Shown: positions 48,685-59,378 of the stretch, piece after piece | Layout of the letters: every line of letters begins with the position of its first letter | How positions within the stretch are numbered: position 1 is the first letter of the stretch | Assembly: GCA_029975645.1 (NCBI GenBank) | Contig: JARKOU010000086.1 | Span: 1 to 63,876 of the forward strand | Reading direction: 5' to 3' | Length of the DNA stretch: 63,876 nucleotides | Source of the DNA: Actinomycetales bacterium | GTDB taxonomy: Bacteria > Actinomycetota > Actinomycetes > Actinomycetales > JAHECE01 | The notes under the pieces: generated by a model | What the model saw: the letters and a program-made list of their open reading frames with translations, nothing else | What the model was told of the DNA's origin: nothing | The model's database searches: none | Made by a program: the position numbers and the translations under genes

Positions 48685-49814
48685 TGCCTGTGACCAGCGT
48701 GATCGCCCCGGACGCACCGGCCCGGATGGGGGAACCGGTCGAGCCGACGGCGATGCTCCGATACCTCGAGGCGCTCGGCGCCTGGCGTGACGCGCGGCGC
48801 ACGGAACTCGACGAACTGGACCGCCTCGCGTTGGCCTCGCCCGACGCGGCCGCGCTCGCGCCGGACGTCACCCTCGCGATGGCGCTGTGGCAGGCGGTGG
48901 CCGTGCGGTACGGCGAACTCGAGAAGGTGTGGGACAGCGGGCGGGTGGGGCTCGTCGAGCGGCAGCGGCTCTCCGCCCTCGTGTGGGGGAGGCTCGACGC
49001 CGCGGGGACGGGCGCGTCGCTGGCCGTCTCGCTCCCGGAGGCGTGCCGTCTCTCCGACGCCCTGGCGGCGCAGCTGCGCCTGCGGCTCTCGCTCGACCCG
49101 GTGGGCCTGGACCTCGCGGCGCACCTGCGCGCCATGCGGGCCACGCTCGAGCGGATCCGCGACCTGGTCTCGGCGGAACCCGCGGGTCCCGTCCGAGACG
49201 GAGGCGCAGCGCGCCTGGGCCGCCTGGAGCGGCGGTTGACGGAGCTGACCGGTAAGGCGCAACGCGGGGCCGACGTCGGTGGCTTGGTCGGCCCGTGGGA
49301 GACCGACGCCGCCGTGGCGGAGCGGGATCTCATCGTCGCCGCGGCCACGCGCCGCGACGCCGAGCGCGACCGTGCGCGGGCGGAGGCCCGGCGAGCCGAC
49401 CTCATCGCTCGGGCCGAGGCGGTGGCCCGGACGGCGGACGCCTGCGCCTCCCGCGTCCGGCCCGCCCCGACGCTCGGCATCCCGCGCGTCGAGGCGCTCG
49501 GGCCGGTGCCGTCCGACCCGGGCGCCGTGGTCGCCTACCTGACGCGGCTGGACGCCGTCGGGCGTGCCCTCGCCCAGGCGGAGGAGGCCTACAGCGCGCC
49601 GCTCGCCGAGGTGGACCGTCTCCGCGCGCTGCTCGACCTGTACCGCGCGAAGGCCGAGGCCACGGGCCTGACCACCCGGCTCGAGGTGCGTGAGATGTAC
49701 CGGCTCGCGGGCGCCGTCGTCCACGACACCCCGACGGACCTGCCGCGGGCGCGGGCGGTGCTCGCGGCCTACCAAGCCCTGCTCGGCGATGCCTCGATCG
49801 GAGGGACCAGGTGA
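48684..49814 (+). CDS. Hypothetical alpha-helical/coiled-coil protein between GlnH and PknG
   Basis: Coding ORF with overlapping junction; Ala/Arg/Leu-rich heptad-like C-terminal half. Confidence 0.78.
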   Translation: MPVTSVIAPDAPARMGEPVEPTAMLRYLEALGAWRDARRTELDELDRLALASPDAAALAPDVTLAMALWQAVAVRYGELEKVWDSGRVGLVERQRLSALVWGRLDAAGTGASLAVSLPEACRLSDALAAQLRLRLSLDPVGLDLAAHLRAMRATLERIRDLVSAEPAGPVRDGGAARLGRLERRLTELTGKAQRGADVGGLVGPWETDAAVAERDLIVAAATRRDAERDRARAEARRADLIARAEAVARTADACASRVRPAPTLGIPRVEALGPVPSDPGAVVAYLTRLDAVGRALAQAEEAYSAPLAEVDRLRALLDLYRAKAEATGLTTRLEVREMYRLAGAVVHDTPTDLPRARAVLAAYQALLGDASIGGTR

Positions 49815-52150
49815 GTACTCACCCGACCAGCACCGGCCCGACCAGCACCGGCCCGACCAGCGCACTCCGCTGCGCGGAGCCCGGCTGCACGGGGACGATC
49901 GTCGACGGCTACTGCGACGTGTGCGGCACGCCGGGGCCGCCGGCCGCCCCGTCGGGGCCGCCCGTCGCGTCGGCGGCGGGTGCCGCAGCCGCGGGTGCCG
50001 CTGCTTCCGGCGCCGCCCCAGCGGGTGCGACCCCCGCCGGAGTCGACGCCGCGCCGTCGGCGGTCTCGCGGGCGTCGCGGGCATCGGCCCGGCTGGCGTC
50101 GACGGCGATGGGGTCCGCGCGCACGGGGAGCGGCACCGCGGTGACCCGGCGGGTGGGGACGTCCTCCACCCGGCTGCGGGCCTCCCGTCTCGGGGCGGGG
50201 CTCACCAGCGTCCCGCCGCAGCCCGCGATCGACGCGTCCAAAGCGATCATGGCCAACCCCGAGGTGGCGGAGGAGAAGCGGTTCTGCCCCACGTGCGGCT
50301 CCCCGGTGGGCCGGTCGATCGACGGCCGGCCGGGGCGCACGGAGGGCTTCTGCCCGCAGTGCGGCTCGCAGTTCTCCTTCACGCCCAAGTTGCGCCCCGG
50401 CGACCTGGTCGGCGGCCAGTACGAGGTGGCCGGCTGCCTGGCCCACGGCGGCCTCGGCTGGATCTACCTCGCCCGGGACCGCAACGTCTCGGACCGCTGG
50501 GTGGTCCTCAAGGGCCTCCTGAACACCGGCGATGCCGACGCGCTCGCCGCCGCCATCGCCGAGCGGCAGTTCCTCGCGCAGGTGGAGCACCCGGCGATCG
50601 TCGAGATCTACAACTTCGTCACGCACGAAGGTGCCGGCTACACGGTCATGGAGTACGTGGGCGGGACGTCGCTCAAGCAGCTCCTCAAGGACCGGATGAA
50701 GGCCGCCGGGCGGTACGACCCGCTGCCGCTCGACCAGGCCATCGCCTACGTGCTGGGCATCCTGCCCGCCTTCGAGTACCTGCACGACCTCGGGCTGATC
50801 TACTGCGACTTCAAGCCGGACAACGTGATCCAGGTGGGCGACGACGTCAAGTTGATCGACCTCGGCGGCGTGCGCCGCGTGAGCGACCAGGACTCCGCGA
50901 TCTACGGCACGGTCGGGTACCAGGCCCCGGAGGTGCCCGAGGTGGGCGCGTCCGTAGCCTCGGACATCTACACGATCGGACGCTCGCTCCTGGTGCTGGC
51001 CATGGAGTTCCGCGGGTACCAGTCCACGTACGTCGACTCGCTCCCACCGGTGGCGGACACGCCCCTCTTCCAGCGGTACGACTCCTTCTACCGTCTGGTC
51101 GCCAAGGCGTGTGCGCCCCAACCGGCCGACCGGTTCGGCACCGTCGCCGAGATGCGGGTGCAGCTGCTCGGCGTGCTCCGCGAGGTGGTGGCCTCGAACC
51201 GGCCGGGCGAGGAGGCCGCGCAGTACGCCGCGCCGTCGCTGCACTTCCACACGCCCGACATCGCCGAGCCCGCCCTCGACTGGCGGGACCTGCCCGGGCT
51301 CGTGGTGGACACCGCGGACCCGCAGGTGGGCTGGCTCGCGGGGGTCAGCGTCCAGGATCCCGTCCAGCGCCTGGACCACCTCATGCGCGCGCCCGAGCGC
51401 TCGCCGGAGGTCCTCCTCGCGACGGGGCGCACGGCGCTCCTCGCCGGACGCCTGGACGTGGCGGACCACGTGGCCGAGGAACTCCTGCAGAACGACCCGT
51501 GGGAGTGGCGGGCGGTGTGGCTCCAGGGCCTACGCACCCTCGCCGTCGGCAACGGCGCCGGAGCCCGAGCGGCCTTCAACGCCGTGTACGGCCAGGTCCC
51601 GGGCGAACTGGCGCCCAAACTCGCCCTCGCGCTTTCGTGCGAGACGAGCGGCGAGCCGGACATCGCCGAGGCGCTCTACCTCACCTGTGCCAGGACGGAC
51701 GCCGCGTACGCCGCCCCGGCGGCATTCGCCCTGGCCAGGATCCGCAGCGGGCGCATCGATGTGCGCGGCGCCGTCGGCGCCCTGGATCTGGTCCCCGCGA
51801 CCAGCCGGGCGTTCCCCGAGGCGCGGCGGCAGCGAGCGCGCCTGCTCACGGTGTCCGACGGCGGGCTGCCGACTCTCGCGGAGGCCATGGCGAGCCTCGA
51901 CGGCGTCGCGGTGGACCCGTACGACCGGACGCGCCTGCTCGCCGACGCCCTGGAGAAGGCGCTGGCCGAGGTCCTGAGCAAGGGTCCGCAGCCGACCATC
52001 CGCATCGCCGGCTACTCCGCCGTGGAGCACTCCCTGCGGGACGGGCTCGAGATGGCCTACCGGGGTCTCGCCTCCATGGCGCCCACCCGGGAGGACAAGA
52101 TCGAGCTGGTCGACGCCGCGAACGCCGTACGCCGGTGGACGTTCCGGTGA
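49811..52150 (+). CDS. pknG: PknG-like serine/threonine protein kinase (zinc-ribbon N-terminus, kinase, TPR C-terminus)
   Basis: CxxC motifs (CTGTIVDGYCDVCG, FCPTCG...FCPQCG); VGGQYEVAGCLAHGGLGWIYLARDRNVSDRWVVLKGLLN...LGLIYCDFKPDNVIQVGDDVKLIDLGGVRR. Confidence 0.95.
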   Translation: MSTHPTSTGPTSTGPTSALRCAEPGCTGTIVDGYCDVCGTPGPPAAPSGPPVASAAGAAAAGAAASGAAPAGATPAGVDAAPSAVSRASRASARLASTAMGSARTGSGTAVTRRVGTSSTRLRASRLGAGLTSVPPQPAIDASKAIMANPEVAEEKRFCPTCGSPVGRSIDGRPGRTEGFCPQCGSQFSFTPKLRPGDLVGGQYEVAGCLAHGGLGWIYLARDRNVSDRWVVLKGLLNTGDADALAAAIAERQFLAQVEHPAIVEIYNFVTHEGAGYTVMEYVGGTSLKQLLKDRMKAAGRYDPLPLDQAIAYVLGILPAFEYLHDLGLIYCDFKPDNVIQVGDDVKLIDLGGVRRVSDQDSAIYGTVGYQAPEVPEVGASVASDIYTIGRSLLVLAMEFRGYQSTYVDSLPPVADTPLFQRYDSFYRLVAKACAPQPADRFGTVAEMRVQLLGVLREVVASNRPGEEAAQYAAPSLHFHTPDIAEPALDWRDLPGLVVDTADPQVGWLAGVSVQDPVQRLDHLMRAPERSPEVLLATGRTALLAGRLDVADHVAEELLQNDPWEWRAVWLQGLRTLAVGNGAGARAAFNAVYGQVPGELAPKLALALSCETSGEPDIAEALYLTCARTDAAYAAPAAFALARIRSGRIDVRGAVGALDLVPATSRAFPEARRQRARLLTVSDGGLPTLAEAMASLDGVAVDPYDRTRLLADALEKALAEVLSKGPQPTIRIAGYSAVEHSLRDGLEMAYRGLASMAPTREDKIELVDAANAVRRWTFR

Positions 52151-53247
52151 GCGAGCCGCGCCCCACCTGCCCGGCGTGCGGCGCCGTCGTCTCGCCGGAC
52201 GCCCGCTTCTGCGAGGCGTGCGGGACGGCGCTCGGGACGGCCGTGGCGGCGGGACCTCCGCCGCCGGCGGCGCCGTTCGATGCGGTACCCCCGCCGCCAC
52301 CGACAGGGCCGGCGGCCCAGCCGCCGGCCGCCCCGGCGTGCGCCGTGTGCGGCGGCGTGATCGACGCGGACGGCTACTGCACGGCGTGCGGGGCGAAGGC
52401 CCCCGATCCGCGCGCCCACCTCGAGGAGCGCCCGCAGCGATGGGTCGGCGCCGTGTGCGACGTCGGGGCCCGCCGCGCGCGCAACGAGGACGGCGTGGCC
52501 GTCGCCGCCGGCGTGACCCCGGGGGAGTTCGCGGTCCTCGTGGTGTGCGACGGCGTCTCGGCCGCCGAGGCCTCGGACGTCGCCAGCCTCGCCGCCGCGC
52601 GCGCGGCGCGGGACGTGCTCGTGCGCACCCGGACGGGCGCCTCCGGGGAGGAGGTCGCCGAGGACGCGGCGGAGCGGCAGGTTGCCGCCGCCGACGCCGC
52701 CCAGCGCGCCGTCGTCCAGGCGACGCCGCACGACCACGGCGAGAGCCCGGCGTCGTGCACCTACGTGGCGGTGCTCCTGGAGGCCGGCCACGTCTCGGCC
52801 GGGGTGGTGGGGGACAGCCGCGCGTACTGGCTCCCCGACGCCGGCGAAGCCCGTCACCTCACCACGGACGACTCGATGGCCGCGGAGATGATGGCGGCGG
52901 GCCAGACCCGGGCGGAGGCCGAGGCGGGACCGTTCGCTCACACGATCACCCGCTGGCTCGGGATCGACTCCCCAGGCCACACGCCCCGCGTCACCACGAC
53001 GGTGATCGACGGCCCGGGCTGGGTCCTGGCGTGCTCGGACGGGCTCTGGAACTACTGCTCGCCGGCGGCGGACCTGGGCGTCGTGGTGCGCGAGGTGGCA
53101 TCGGCTGCGGGCGGCGACTCCCTCGCCACGGCGTCCGGCCTCGTGGACTGGGCCAACGCGCGCGGCGGGCATGACAACATCACCGTGGCACTCGCGCGGA
53201 TCGACGCCGCCGCGGTGCCGGCCAACGATCCCGGATCGAAGGGGTAG
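52147..53247 (+). CDS. PP2C-family Ser/Thr phosphatase with two N-terminal zinc ribbons
   Basis: CPACGAVVSPDARFCEACG; CAVCGGVIDADGYCTACG; DVGARRARNEDGVAVAA...VLVVCDGVSAAEASDVAS...VGDSRAYWL...GHDNITVALARID. Confidence 0.93.
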   Translation: MSEPRPTCPACGAVVSPDARFCEACGTALGTAVAAGPPPPAAPFDAVPPPPPTGPAAQPPAAPACAVCGGVIDADGYCTACGAKAPDPRAHLEERPQRWVGAVCDVGARRARNEDGVAVAAGVTPGEFAVLVVCDGVSAAEASDVASLAAARAARDVLVRTRTGASGEEVAEDAAERQVAAADAAQRAVVQATPHDHGESPASCTYVAVLLEAGHVSAGVVGDSRAYWLPDAGEARHLTTDDSMAAEMMAAGQTRAEAEAGPFAHTITRWLGIDSPGHTPRVTTTVIDGPGWVLACSDGLWNYCSPAADLGVVVREVASAAGGDSLATASGLVDWANARGGHDNITVALARIDAAAVPANDPGSKG

Positions 53248-53251
53248 GGCG

Positions 53252-54532
53252 ATGGCGGAGTTCTCCGCGCAGGTGTACCAGAACGAGTTCCTGGCCGACG
53301 GCGCCACGGACGTCCACGCGATCGTCACCGTGGCATGCCGCGGCGCCGGGCTCGCGGGCCAGGCGGGCGGGGCCGCCGGGGAGATCGTGGTGGTGGACAC
53401 CTCCGGCTCCATGTCCGGCTCGCGCATCGCCGCGGCGCAGACCGCGGCGGCCGCCGCAATCGACCAGATCCTCGACGGCACGTGGTTCGCCGTGATCGCG
53501 GGTAACCACCAGGCGCACCTGGCGTACCCGTGGCTGGGCGGCAGGCTCGGCATGGTGCAGATGAACGCCGCGACGCGGGCCGGCGCGCGGGCCGCCGTCG
53601 CCCAGTTCCGGGCCGACGGTGGCACGGCCATGGGCACGTGGCTCGAACTGACCGCAGCGGTCTTCGACACGGTGCCCGGACTCGCCCAGCGCCACGCGAT
53701 CCTGCTCACGGACGGCAAGAACCAGCACGAGAGCTCCGAGGAGCTCTCCCGGCGCATCGCCGTGGCGAGCGGGCGGTTCCAGGCGGACTGCCGGGGCGTG
53801 GGGTCCGACTGGGAGGTCGGGGAACTGCGCCGGATCGCCTCGGCCCTGCTCGGGACCGTGGACCTGATCCCGACGCCGCAGGAGATGGCCGAGGAGTTCG
53901 CCCTGCTCATGCGGGCGGCGATGAGCCGCGGCGTCGCCTCGGCGGACCTGCGCGTGTGGACGCCCCAGGGCGCGAAGGTGCTGTTCGTGCGCCAGGTCGC
54001 CCCGGCGGTGGAGGACCTCACGGCCCGACGGCGCGACGTCACGCCGCTCGTCGGTGCCTACCCCACGGGCTCCTGGGGAGACGAGTCCCGCGACTTCCAC
54101 GTGGCGGTGCGCCTGAGCGCGCCGCGCGCCGTCGGCCAGGAGCAGCTCGCCGCGCGCGTGCAGCTCGCGCTCGGCGAGGACGTCAAGGCGCAGGCCCTGG
54201 TCAAGGCGGTCTGGACGGACGATGACGCCCTGAGCGCCAAGATCAGCCCGGAGGTGGCCCACTACACCGGCCAGACGGAACTCGCGCAGGCGATCCAGGA
54301 CGGCCTCGCCGCGAAGGCGGCGGGGGACGAGGCGACGGCGACGGCGAAACTCGGCCGCGCCGTGCAACTCGCCCAGGAGACGGGCAACGAGGAGGCGACC
54401 TCGAAGTTGCGCAAGGTCGTGGAGATCGAGGAGGCGGGGACCGGCAAGGTGCGCCTGAAGCGAGGCGTGGACCGGCTCGATGAGATGGCACTCGACACGT
54501 CCTCCACCAAGACCACCCGGGTGCGCAAGTGA
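53252..54532 (+). CDS. VWA-domain protein
   Basis: EIVVVDTSGSMSGSRIAAAQTAAAAAIDQI...ADGGTAMGTWLELT...HAILLTDGKNQ (MIDAS). Confidence 0.92.
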   Translation: MAEFSAQVYQNEFLADGATDVHAIVTVACRGAGLAGQAGGAAGEIVVVDTSGSMSGSRIAAAQTAAAAAIDQILDGTWFAVIAGNHQAHLAYPWLGGRLGMVQMNAATRAGARAAVAQFRADGGTAMGTWLELTAAVFDTVPGLAQRHAILLTDGKNQHESSEELSRRIAVASGRFQADCRGVGSDWEVGELRRIASALLGTVDLIPTPQEMAEEFALLMRAAMSRGVASADLRVWTPQGAKVLFVRQVAPAVEDLTARRRDVTPLVGAYPTGSWGDESRDFHVAVRLSAPRAVGQEQLAARVQLALGEDVKAQALVKAVWTDDDALSAKISPEVAHYTGQTELAQAIQDGLAAKAAGDEATATAKLGRAVQLAQETGNEEATSKLRKVVEIEEAGTGKVRLKRGVDRLDEMALDTSSTKTTRVRK

Positions 54533-55362
54533 GCACGGTGACCTGCCCGAACGGGCACCAGAGCGTCTCGACCGACTACTGCGACACGTGCGGCGCGCCC
54601 ATCGGCGACGCCGGGGCGGATAGCGGCGCGGCCGCCACCCCAGCGGCGGGTGCCACCACCACGCTGCCGGCAGGTCCCTCGCCCGACGCGGTGCCGCAGA
54701 CATGCCCCAACTGCGGCACCGAGAACCGCCCCAGCGCGTTGTTCTGCGAGGGCTGCGGGTACGACTTCACCACCGGGGCCCTGCCGCGCGGCGCGGCGCC
54801 GGACGCAGGGTTGGCCGGTGCAGGGTCTGCCGGTGCGGGGTCCTCGGGCGCTGGGCCTACCGGCGGCGGGGCTTCGGGCGGTTCCGGACAGCCCGCCCCG
54901 GCCGTGGGGACGGGCGCGACACCCGCACCCCTGGCCCCGGCCGTGCCGCTGGAGTGGGTGGTGGAGGTCTGGGTGGACCCGGAGTGGTACGCCCAGCAGG
55001 AGAGCACCGAGCCCTGCCCCTCGCCCGGGCTGCCCGTGATCGTGCCGCTGACCGTGCGCAGCGTGCTGGTGGGCCGCACCTCGCGTAGCCGGAACATCCA
55101 CCCCGAGATCGCGTGCGAGGCGGACATCGCCGTGAGCCGCCGCCACGCGCAGCTGTCCACCGACGGCACCCGGTGGTGGGTGGAGGACCTGGGCTCCTCG
55201 AACGGGACGTTCGTGGGCCCGGCGAGCGGGCCGTTGCCGACCGATCCGCTGGTCCCGGGACAGCGCCGCGAACTAGTCGAGGACGACCGCGTCTACGTGG
55301 GTGCGTGGACCCGCCTGGTGGTCCGGCGGGCAACCGAGGAGGAGCAGGCCGGCGGGGTCTGA
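54529..55362 (+). CDS. FHA-domain protein with zinc ribbons
   Basis: VTCPNGHQSVSTDYCDTCGAP, CPNCGTENRPSALFCEGCGYD; SVLVGRTSRSRNIHPEIACEADIAVSRRHAQLSTDGTRWWVEDLGSSNGTFV. Confidence 0.92.
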   Translation: MSTVTCPNGHQSVSTDYCDTCGAPIGDAGADSGAAATPAAGATTTLPAGPSPDAVPQTCPNCGTENRPSALFCEGCGYDFTTGALPRGAAPDAGLAGAGSAGAGSSGAGPTGGGASGGSGQPAPAVGTGATPAPLAPAVPLEWVVEVWVDPEWYAQQESTEPCPSPGLPVIVPLTVRSVLVGRTSRSRNIHPEIACEADIAVSRRHAQLSTDGTRWWVEDLGSSNGTFVGPASGPLPTDPLVPGQRRELVEDDRVYVGAWTRLVVRRATEEEQAGGV

Positions 55363-56428: not shown

Positions 56429-57334
56429 ATGGGGGACGGGGGCGCGCAGACTGCGGCTCCTCGTTCGATCTTCGTCCAGGTGCCCGCGTATCGGGACCGA
56501 GAACTTCCGAAGACCCTGCTCAGCCTGTATCGGAGGGCCCGCGAGCCGGAGGCCCTGCGTGTCGTCGTCCTGTGGCAGGCGTCGCCTGAGGAGAGGCTGC
56601 CCGACCACGTGCGCAGCCTTCCCCGGCTCACGGTGATCCGACACCCCTACACGGAGAGCCGCGGGCCCAACTGGGCGCGAGCGCGGATCCAGGACCACCT
56701 CGCGGACGAGCCGTACACGCTCTACCTCGACTCCCACCATCGGTTCGTGCCCGGGTGGGACGGGCAAGCACGGGCGATGCTCGAGCACCTCGAGGCACGC
56801 GGCGTGTCCAAACCCGTGCTCACCGCCTACCTGCCCGGCTACGTGCCTGGCCGCGGGAGCCGCGGGCGGCTTCGCGAGCCATACAAGATCTACCCGATGC
56901 AGCGGGCCGGCGGCCTGCTCACCCGGCTGACGAGCTACCCGATCCCGGACTGGCGTCGCCTTACCGCCCCCGTCACCGCCGAGTTCCTCTCGCTGCACTT
57001 CGTCTTCGCCCGCTCCGCCTTCACCCGCGAGGTTCCGACGGACCCCGGCGTCTACTTCTTCGGTGACGAGGTGGCGCTCGGGCTGCGCGCCTACACGCAC
57101 GGCTGGGATCTCTTCCACCCCCACCGGGTGCTGGGCTGGCATGCGTACGACCGGGCCAGTCGACAGCCGCACTGGGACCACCACTCCGACTGGGCTGTCC
57201 GGAACGAGGCGTCGATCCGCCGGCTGCGCCAGCTCTATACGGCGGCCCCGGAAATGGCCCATCTGCTCGGCAGAGAGCGGTCGGTCGGGGACTACGAGAG
57301 GCACATCATGCATCGTCTGGTGGTGGATGGGTGA
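56429..57334 (+). CDS. GlcNAc-transferase of the Gnt1/PF11397 (GT60-like) family
   Basis: SIFVQVPAYRDRELPKTLLSLYRRAREPEALRVVVLWQ...YTESRGPNWARARIQDHLADEPYTLYLDSHHRFVPGWD...FFGDEVALGLRAYTHGWDLFHPH. Confidence 0.87.
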   Translation: MGDGGAQTAAPRSIFVQVPAYRDRELPKTLLSLYRRAREPEALRVVVLWQASPEERLPDHVRSLPRLTVIRHPYTESRGPNWARARIQDHLADEPYTLYLDSHHRFVPGWDGQARAMLEHLEARGVSKPVLTAYLPGYVPGRGSRGRLREPYKIYPMQRAGGLLTRLTSYPIPDWRRLTAPVTAEFLSLHFVFARSAFTREVPTDPGVYFFGDEVALGLRAYTHGWDLFHPHRVLGWHAYDRASRQPHWDHHSDWAVRNEASIRRLRQLYTAAPEMAHLLGRERSVGDYERHIMHRLVVDG

Positions 57335-57960
57335 ACCTTGCCGAGAAGGTGCAGGCGGAGGGGATCTGCTGGGTCGACGACTTCGTCGACCAGGCGCTCT
57401 GCCGCGAGATCGTGGACGAGCTCGAGTTTGCGCTCTGGCGCGACAGCCAAGTGGTCACACGCGACCAGGCGACCATGAGGCTGATCGGGGTGACGGACGT
57501 ACGTCGTCGGAGCCTCAGCACGCAGGAGCGCTGGTTCAGCGACGAGTTGATCGCCATCGTGCGTCGGATCGAGCAGCGGCTCTGCGAGGAGTTCGGCGTT
57601 GCGCCGGACCACCTCGAGAGCTGGCAGGGCCTGCGCTACGGACGCGGCGGGAAGTTCGAGTTGCACCACGACGCCGGGGCCTTCGCCGACGAACCCGCCG
57701 GCGAACGTGTGTTCACCTTCCTCCTCTACGTCCGCAGCCCGAAGCAGGGTGGACAGACGTACTTCCCGGAGTTCGATCGCCTGGTCCCGGCCACGGCGGG
57801 GCGTCTTCTCGCCTGGCAGAACCTCCTTCCGGACGGGAGCCCGGACCCGCGCATGCGTCACGCGGCGACGCCGGTGCACAAGGGCACGAAGGTGGCCCTG
57901 ACAACCTGGAGCCGCCAGGGGGCGATCAGGCTGTTGCCCCCGGAGGGGCGGCAGCCGTAG
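57331..57960 (+). CDS. Prolyl-4-hydroxylase-like 2OG-Fe(II) dioxygenase
   Basis: WQGLRYGRGGKFELHHDAGAF (HxD)...FTFLLYVRSPKQGGQTYFPEFDRLVPATAGRLLAWQN...MRHAATPVHKGTKVALTTW (distal H...K); 4-nt overlap with upstream gene. Confidence 0.9.
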   Translation: MNLAEKVQAEGICWVDDFVDQALCREIVDELEFALWRDSQVVTRDQATMRLIGVTDVRRRSLSTQERWFSDELIAIVRRIEQRLCEEFGVAPDHLESWQGLRYGRGGKFELHHDAGAFADEPAGERVFTFLLYVRSPKQGGQTYFPEFDRLVPATAGRLLAWQNLLPDGSPDPRMRHAATPVHKGTKVALTTWSRQGAIRLLPPEGRQP

Positions 57961-58037
57961 CGTGCGGTCAACGCGGACGACGCAGTCAACGCGGGTGACC
58001 CGGATGACGGGGATGACGCAGGACACGAGGGGGGCCG

Positions 58038-58355
58038 ATGTCCGAGCAGGATTTCGTCAAGCGAGTGATCGCCAAGTACGGGCCGACCCTGGACCTCGAG
58101 GCGCGACCCGACGAACTCATCGACATCATCCGATCCGCTCGGCTGGATGAGCCCGGCGACGGCGGAGCCCCCCCGGGCGGGGCACCCACGCCACCGCCAC
58201 CGCCGCCGCCCCCGCCTCCCGGCCCGACCAGCGTCCAGCCGGATGTCCTGCGACTCGAGGACGTCATGGCCGAGGTGTTGAGGCTCTCGCGTCAGGTGAC
58301 CAAGAGCGCGAGGGACATCAAGGCCATCAAGGGACAACTCGGCGTCGACGGCTGA
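58038..58355 (+). CDS. Small protein with central deca-proline tract; candidate substrate of the upstream hydroxylase/GT
   Basis: MSEQDFVKRVIAKYGPTLDLEARPDELIDIIRSARLDEPGDGGAPPGGAPTPPPPPPPPPPGPTSVQPDVLRLEDVMAEVLRLSRQVTKSARDIKAIKGQLGVDG; ten Pro codons at 58191-58220; G-rich ribosome-binding site. Confidence 0.7.
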   Translation: MSEQDFVKRVIAKYGPTLDLEARPDELIDIIRSARLDEPGDGGAPPGGAPTPPPPPPPPPPGPTSVQPDVLRLEDVMAEVLRLSRQVTKSARDIKAIKGQLGVDG

Positions 58356-58439: not shown

Positions 58440-59378
58440 ATGTCGAGGGTGGTCTTCCCAGGTCCCCCGTCTCGCCTTCCGCGCTCGCCCGGACCGCCCG
58501 TGGCCCCTCGTCCGTGGCTGGACGCCGTCGTCGTCGAACCGCCCGCCCCCGGTCCCGGCTCCTGGGCGGGCGCACCGTCCGCCGTCGTCGTCGATCGCAC
58601 CATCTACCTCGCCTACCGCCTCCGCCACCCGGTCGGCGAGGGACGGGGCGTCGCGAACGTCGTCGCCCGCTCCGACGACGGCGTCCACCTCGAGACCCTG
58701 GCCGTGGTCCCCAAGGACCCCTTCGACACGGACTCGCTCGAGCGCCCCGCCCTCCTGCGCACGCCCGAGGGCCGCTGGCGCCTCTACGTCAGCGTCGCCA
58801 CGCCGGGCACCAAGCACTGGCGCGTGGACCTCCTCGAGGCCGCCACTGCCGAGGGCCTCGCCACCGCCACACCGCGCACCGTCCTGCCGGGCAGCGACGC
58901 CGAGGGCGTCAAGGATCCGGTGATCGTGCGCCACGGCGGCCGGTGGCACCTCTGGGCGTCCGTGCACCCCCTCGACGACCCCGACGCGACCGACCGGATG
59001 ACCACCTGGTACGCCACCAGCGACGACGGCGTCACGTGGCACGGCGAGGGGACCGCCTTGCGGGGAGGGGCGGGGTCGTGGGACGCGCGCGGGGCCCGGA
59101 TCACCGCCGTCGTCCCCGGTCCGCGGCCGTGGGCCTTCTACGACGGGCGGGCGAACGCGCAGGAGAACTGGGAAGAGCGCACGGGGGTGGCGCTCGGCGC
59201 GGGGCGCTTCGGCTTCTTCGAGCCCGCGCCGTCGCCGTGGGCCCGCTCGCCCGAGGGCGGGGGCGCGTTCCGGTACGTCACCGTGGTCGACCTACCCGAC
59301 GGCGCCCGGCGGCTGTACTACGAGGTCGCCCGGGCCGACGGCGCCCACGACCTGCGCACGCACCTGATCAGCCGCTAG
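58440..59378 (+). CDS. Five-bladed beta-propeller glycoside hydrolase-like protein (GH43/GH32/GH130-type fold)
   Basis: [39 protein letters not shown]...[22 protein letters not shown]...[12 protein letters not shown]...[20 protein letters not shown]. Confidence 0.75.

Follow-up and report, generated by a model that had tools for sequence, protein, structure and literature searches.

Plants, algae and protists are known to O-glycosylate hydroxyproline. The plant systems operate in the secretory pathway and rely upon arabinosyl- and galactosyltransferases of families other than GT60. In the protist Skp1 pathway, the prolyl 4-hydroxylase (P4H) PhyA and the GT60 transferase Gnt1 act in the cytoplasm upon a single target proline of Skp1. 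We know of no GT60 coupling of the P4H of Bacillus anthracis. This bacterial enzyme hydroxylates PPG peptides, with a preference for proline before glycine (PMC8968730). In the Chlamydomonas enzyme, Cr-P4H, Tyr140 contacts the substrate proline (PMC9676403), while the peptide is positioned by E127 and R161, and calculations predict the R161D and R161Q mutants to be inactive (PMC5684110). On the side of the transferases, GT60 and GT27 have been placed in one clade in which a DxH motif replaces DxD; GT60 has been reported from prokaryotes and protists only, and Ser/Thr polypeptide transfer is also ascribed to its enzymes (PMC7185993).

Here we describe a three-gene cassette in a 63,876-nucleotide stretch of DNA from an Actinomycetales bacterium (hereafter the window, meaning the whole stretch analyzed), whose genome is 88.7% complete and 6.5% contaminated. 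All three genes lie on the plus strand. The first encodes a PF11397 (GT60/Gnt1-type) glycosyltransferase of 301 aa (56429..57334), the second a P4H-like 2OG-Fe(II) dioxygenase of 209 aa with a GTG start (57331..57960), and the third a small proline-linker protein of 105 aa (58038..58355), which is the proposed acceptor. The start of the hydroxylase gene is located within the end of the transferase gene in a 4-nt GTGA overlap (57331..57334), and a gap of 77 bp separates the hydroxylase gene from the small-protein gene, which is preceded by a purine-rich stretch. All three frames are backed by coding-like GC content per codon position. Reading the sequences by eye revealed no evident signal peptide at the start of any of the three proteins, and a promoter and terminator scan found nothing. 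The first-pass annotation had described a Gnt1-type transferase overlapping a P4H-like gene by GTGA, an intact HxD...H...K motif and a polyproline protein downstream, all of which was confirmed by Pfam matches, coordinates and residues. The flanks of the cassette consist of ordinary chromosomal genes, including a PknG/PP2C/VWA/FHA cluster, an esterase and a class I E/Q-type tRNA synthetase, among others. The cluster (49811-55362, one strand) is signalling-operon-like and encodes a PknG-type kinase with rubredoxin and TPR domains, a PP2C phosphatase, a VWA protein and a zinc-ribbon-FHA protein. On the other side, a gene for a GH32/GH43-like protein (58440-59378; sub-threshold match) is found on the same strand 84 bp 3' of the small-protein gene; no counterpart of it was recognized at the two other cassettes described below.

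The transferase matched PF11397 with an E-value of 1.9e-55 and 189 bits against a curated cut-off of 21, and its two orthologues scored 183 and 169 bits. An AlphaFold2 model built from 15 sequences reached a mean pLDDT of 90.1, and 49 of the best 50 solved structures listed for it were polypeptide GalNAc-transferases (GT27), the remaining one being GlfT2. The DxH metal/donor motif of GT27/GT60 is present as D101-S102-H103 (56729..56737, plus strand), in which D101 and H103 are invariant in 23 relatives. While it shares this motif and its nearest solved folds with GT27, the cassette transferase is only 12-17% identical to those enzymes in structural alignments and has no lectin domain, and the targets of GT27 are Ser/Thr. 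The Gnt1/PF11397-type assignment of the first-pass annotation is supported, together with a resemblance to polypeptide transferases, and a grouping with unrelated GT2 enzymes was not seen. Phylogenetic analysis of 23 transferases placed those of the three cassettes in one clade with 100/100 support. A viral origin was considered and rejected: phage and viral PF11397 genes are 31-37% identical and have no P4H neighbour, and the tree sets the cassette transferases apart in a clade of their own with full support. The PDB matches that the transferase sequence gave to pentatricopeptide designs were likewise dismissed as repeat artefacts, none of them being obtained with a three-sequence profile.

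The hydroxylase matched PF13640 with an E-value of 8e-12, and its nearest solved relatives are the human C-P4H alpha-2 catalytic domain, the algal Cr-P4H and the Bacillus P4H. The metal ligands H112 and D114 of the HxD motif (57664..57672, plus strand) align to H143 and D145 of Cr-P4H, and the distal metal ligand H177 and the 2OG-binding K187 (57859..57891, plus strand) align to H227 and K237. Together with E96, R126 and W193, which correspond to E127, R161 and W243 of Cr-P4H, these residues are invariant in the three orthologues. The alignment therefore supports a putative P4H with a complete catalytic residue set and conserved peptide-binding residues, apart from one change: the substrate-contacting Tyr140 of Cr-P4H is Phe109 in all three orthologues. 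This substitution, as read from the alignment, is the main caution regarding the exact reaction that the enzyme would catalyze. A three-sequence hydroxylase profile searched against the PDB matched C-P4H, Cr-P4H, Bacillus P4H and P4H-TM chains, and no PHD2-type chain at E<=10, while PHD2 structures do exist (e.g., 3HQR; PMC9676403). Judging from these profile matches, the hydroxylase belongs with the collagen/algal/Bacillus P4Hs and not with the PhyA/PHD type, which was represented in this comparison by PHD2-type PDB chains; descent from PhyA is not supported.

The small protein has no Pfam match above cut-off, and thus the linked protein encoded by the cassette is not Skp1. Its center is TPPPPPPPPPPGPTS (T-P10-GPTS), the sole run of more than six prolines among the coding-like ORFs of the window. 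The proline tract is not a simple DNA repeat, since four different codons (CCA, CCC, CCG and CCT) are used. In an alignment of the three orthologous copies, a proline linker separates an N-terminal from a C-terminal segment. The linker, residues 39-65 (PGDGGAPPGGAPTPPPPPPPPPPGPTS; 58152..58232, plus strand), is the best-kept part of the protein, as 17 of 21 ungapped columns (39-67) are identical in the three orthologues versus 19/38 and 10/36 columns in the flanks. Low-complexity linkers are as a rule the fastest-diverging parts of proteins, so this pattern points to selection on the linker itself. Two PPG sites are invariant in the alignment, namely P45-P46-G47 (58170..58178, plus strand) and P60-P61-G62, which continues into P63-T64-S65 (58215..58232, plus strand) and includes the Thr/Ser residues that could serve as alternative acceptors. 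The length of the proline run varies, with ten prolines in the window and three in the copy on contig L003, while PPGG and PPPGPTS are invariant; hence only the PPG/GPTS core can be essential. A low-confidence structural model (mean pLDDT 65.8) placed helices at residues 3-14, 24-36 and 73-101 and left the linker unstructured. On these sequence features, the conserved PPG-containing linker is a plausible acceptor.

Two further copies of the cassette were found, all three bacteria belonging to a single order. A transferase search identified a Propioniciclava-type MAG contig (L003) carrying a transferase 59% identical to that of the window, and the next two genes, in the order of the window, encode a hydroxylase (~52% identity) and a small protein (51%). 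The third cassette came to light when 396 genomes of the order were surveyed; it lies in a genome of another family (G476, contig L036), where the gene order is small protein, transferase, hydroxylase. The trio is thus ~51-63% identical between the three genomes with one rearrangement, and the GTGA overlap of transferase and hydroxylase is the same in all three (4754-4757 in L003 and 6655-6658 in L036). Within the survey, PF11397 and a convincing small-protein match occurred in the same two of the 396 genomes and in no other. Homologues of the small protein were seen only beside the transferase and hydroxylase; none without the enzymes was found in class-wide, plasmid, phage and viral searches, and the class-wide search (~390 genomes) yielded no more transferases of the cassette clade and no more small proteins. 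Weaker small-protein matches in genomes of the order and class, plasmids, phages and viral contigs proved upon inspection to be proline/glycine-rich chance alignments. The first-pass annotation had allowed that the neighbourhood might be confined to this genome, which was not the case. Given the presence of the trio in two additional genomes and the protein-level conservation of the small protein, the arrangement is more than chance, and a functional link between the three genes is supported, as far as gene content can tell, by their presence in three genomes, their rearranged order and their co-occurrence. Three orthologous cassettes are known in total, two of them in MAGs, and their distribution is rare and sporadic: within the family of G476, one genome of 12 carries the cassette, and within the genus of the window one of two does. 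It follows from this sporadic distribution that the cassette has probably been exchanged horizontally. In the sister genome of the window's genus, the synteny comparison was cut off by the end of the contig, and no match to the downstream gene turned up. Two repeat-protein genes lie directly upstream of the G476 cassette (L036 3183-5452): one encodes an FG-GAP-repeat protein in which no signal peptide is evident, the other a HEAT-repeat protein. The HEAT gene had no close match in the 11 other genomes of the family that were searched.

We propose that the three genes constitute a self-contained cytoplasmic cassette for two-step, O2-dependent hydroxyproline glycosylation of the small protein, to which we assign a probability of about one half. 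In the first step, suggested by the family and the conserved residues, the dioxygenase would use O2, 2-oxoglutarate and Fe(II) to hydroxylate prolines of the linker, and this chemistry implies a dependence upon O2 and 2OG. In each of the two invariant PPG sites, the likeliest target would be the proline that precedes glycine; given the preference of the B. anthracis P4H for this position, P46 and P61 are predicted to be the first sites. In the second step, the GT60-type transferase, by family a retaining polypeptide HexNAc-transferase, would place a sugar, probably alpha-GlcNAc from UDP-GlcNAc, on the new hydroxyl. The modified linker would be flanked by a two-helix segment on the N-terminal side and a helix on the C-terminal side, and modification may stiffen or mark an adaptor-like protein. 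The more specific formulation, in which this is a prokaryotic hydroxyproline O-glycosylation with a dedicated acceptor, gated by O2/2OG, that attaches HexNAc to a PPG linker and was put together in bacteria, independently of the protist Skp1 pathway, from a collagen-type P4H and a GT60 enzyme, is more tentative, and we hold it at slightly less than even odds.

The first-pass annotation had called the locus a bacterial counterpart of the Skp1 system. The gene linkage, the Gnt1-type transferase and the P4H residues uphold the resemblance, but with a collagen/algal/Bacillus-type hydroxylase the cassette is not a direct counterpart. A role in O2 sensing and a specificity for GlcNAc are not supported. 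Like the Skp1 pathway, it pairs a 2OG prolyl hydroxylase with a PF11397/GT60-type transferase in an apparently cytoplasmic setting; unlike that pathway, it does so with a hydroxylase outside the PhyA/PHD type and a small proline-linker protein as the proposed acceptor in place of Skp1, and no further glycosyltransferases lie beside it. With the Chlamydomonas Cr-P4H and plant hydroxyproline-rich glycoprotein systems it shares a P4H of one sequence group, the E127/R161/W243-type residues and a proline-rich acceptor, whereas the cassette has a GT60-type transferase and its proteins appear cytosolic. The P4H of B. anthracis belongs to the closest characterized bacterial group, and PPG, its peptide substrate (PMC8968730), is invariant in the small protein, although the latter lacks the collagen repeat of the B. 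anthracis collagen-like proteins and has two PPG sites only.

The strongest rival explanation is that both enzymes act upon the one linker in parallel and not in sequence, the transferase glycosylating the invariant Thr/Ser of GPTS, in the way that GT60 and GT27 enzymes act on mucin-like peptides, and the hydroxylase independently modifying nearby prolines. T64 and S65 are indeed invariant in the three orthologues, Ser/Thr polypeptide GalNAc-transferases are the nearest solved folds among the best 50 listed, and O-glycosylation of polypeptides at Ser/Thr is reportedly common to both GT60 and GT27 (PMC7185993). Nonetheless, the 4-nt gene coupling in three genomes and a separate GT60-2OG fusion, described below, suggest that one enzyme works on what the other has made, as in the protist PhyA-Gnt1 fusions (PMC6437050), and we consider parallel marks unlikely. 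It is somewhat less probable still that the small protein serves the two enzymes as partner, adaptor or regulator and that the true acceptor is another proline-rich protein, cytosolic or exported. Conservation is also good in its N-terminal segment, and helices are predicted at both of its ends, as expected of a docking protein, and PF11397 genes elsewhere adjoin secretion apparatus without any such small protein; yet the best conservation lies in the linker and not in the helices, and it is the linker that carries the PPG motif.

A further possibility, which we regard as improbable, is that the cassette is an accessory, mobile or conflict island, devoted to defence or small-peptide biosynthesis, with the modified small protein as its effector. 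This would fit its presence in only one of 12 genomes of the G476 family and one of two in the window's genus, as well as the surroundings of the G476 cassette, which follows the FG-GAP- and HEAT-repeat genes and has a type I restriction-modification-like methylase ORF (identified by eye) ~2 kb downstream. However, PADLOC models match the cassette only through the generic 2OG domain, the window's cassette is flanked by ordinary chromosomal genes, and the window contains nothing that matches the HEAT and FG-GAP genes. That the three genes are chance neighbours, with the transferase acting on a surface glycan, the hydroxylase elsewhere and the proline run being an ordinary high-GC linker, is already disfavoured and appears very improbable. 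Proline-rich linkers are common in high-GC Actinomycetota, and most PF11397 genes have no P4H neighbour, but the trio occurs in three genomes with a changed order and its presence and absence match across the 396 genomes.

The preferred reading, two-step hydroxyproline glycosylation of the small protein, combines elements that are already known, since both enzyme families and the two-step logic have been described from protists and plants. Our literature search, which was incomplete in coverage, found no bacterial hydroxyproline O-glycosylation and no bacterial cassette with a dedicated acceptor. If the proposal is correct, the acceptor encoded beside its enzymes makes for a compact bacterial reaction that is testable in E. 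coli and could furnish a small, genetically encodable tag for proline hydroxylation and glycosylation. It would also bear on the origin of the eukaryotic Gnt1-P4H partnership.

Most of the bacterial PF11397 genes found have no hydroxylase nearby. An exception is contig L005 (3973-7856) from the MAG of a distant bacterium, on which a 963-aa protein comprises PF11397, an AhpC/TSA-like stretch (below the Pfam cut-off) and two PF13640 domains, and a second PF11397 gene overlaps the start of this fusion gene. An ATP-grasp-looking ORF (by eye) follows the two. PhyA-Gnt1 fusions are known from protists (PMC6437050). With the L005 fusion existing besides the cassette, it would seem that the P4H and transferase activities became paired, or stayed paired, on more than one occasion. 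Other bacterial PF11397 genes are found in T6SS clusters, beside an eCIS-type cluster, with a type I secretion system nearby and in large phages, with no P4H near them. On plasmids of Cupriavidus (L038), Burkholderia (L040) and Paraburkholderia (L041), the PF11397 gene comes after a gene for a 'fimbrial' protein in T6SS clusters; in L040 and L041 the annotation lists tssE, tssF, tssG and tagJ, and Rhs and PAAR genes follow; in L038 a TssF-like ORF was recognized by eye. A glycosylation step for a T6SS-linked protein is possible in these clusters. On a plasmid of Azospirillum thermophilum (L039, 5998-12840), the PF11397 gene is directly upstream of a phage-tail-like/eCIS-type cluster (DUF4255, sheath, DUF5908). 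Large Xanthomonas and Stenotrophomonas phages (AP018399.1, OP883945.1 and OP752703.1) carry a PF11397 transferase of ~34% identity, and in phage XacN1 the PF11397 gene adjoins a carbamoyl transferase gene.
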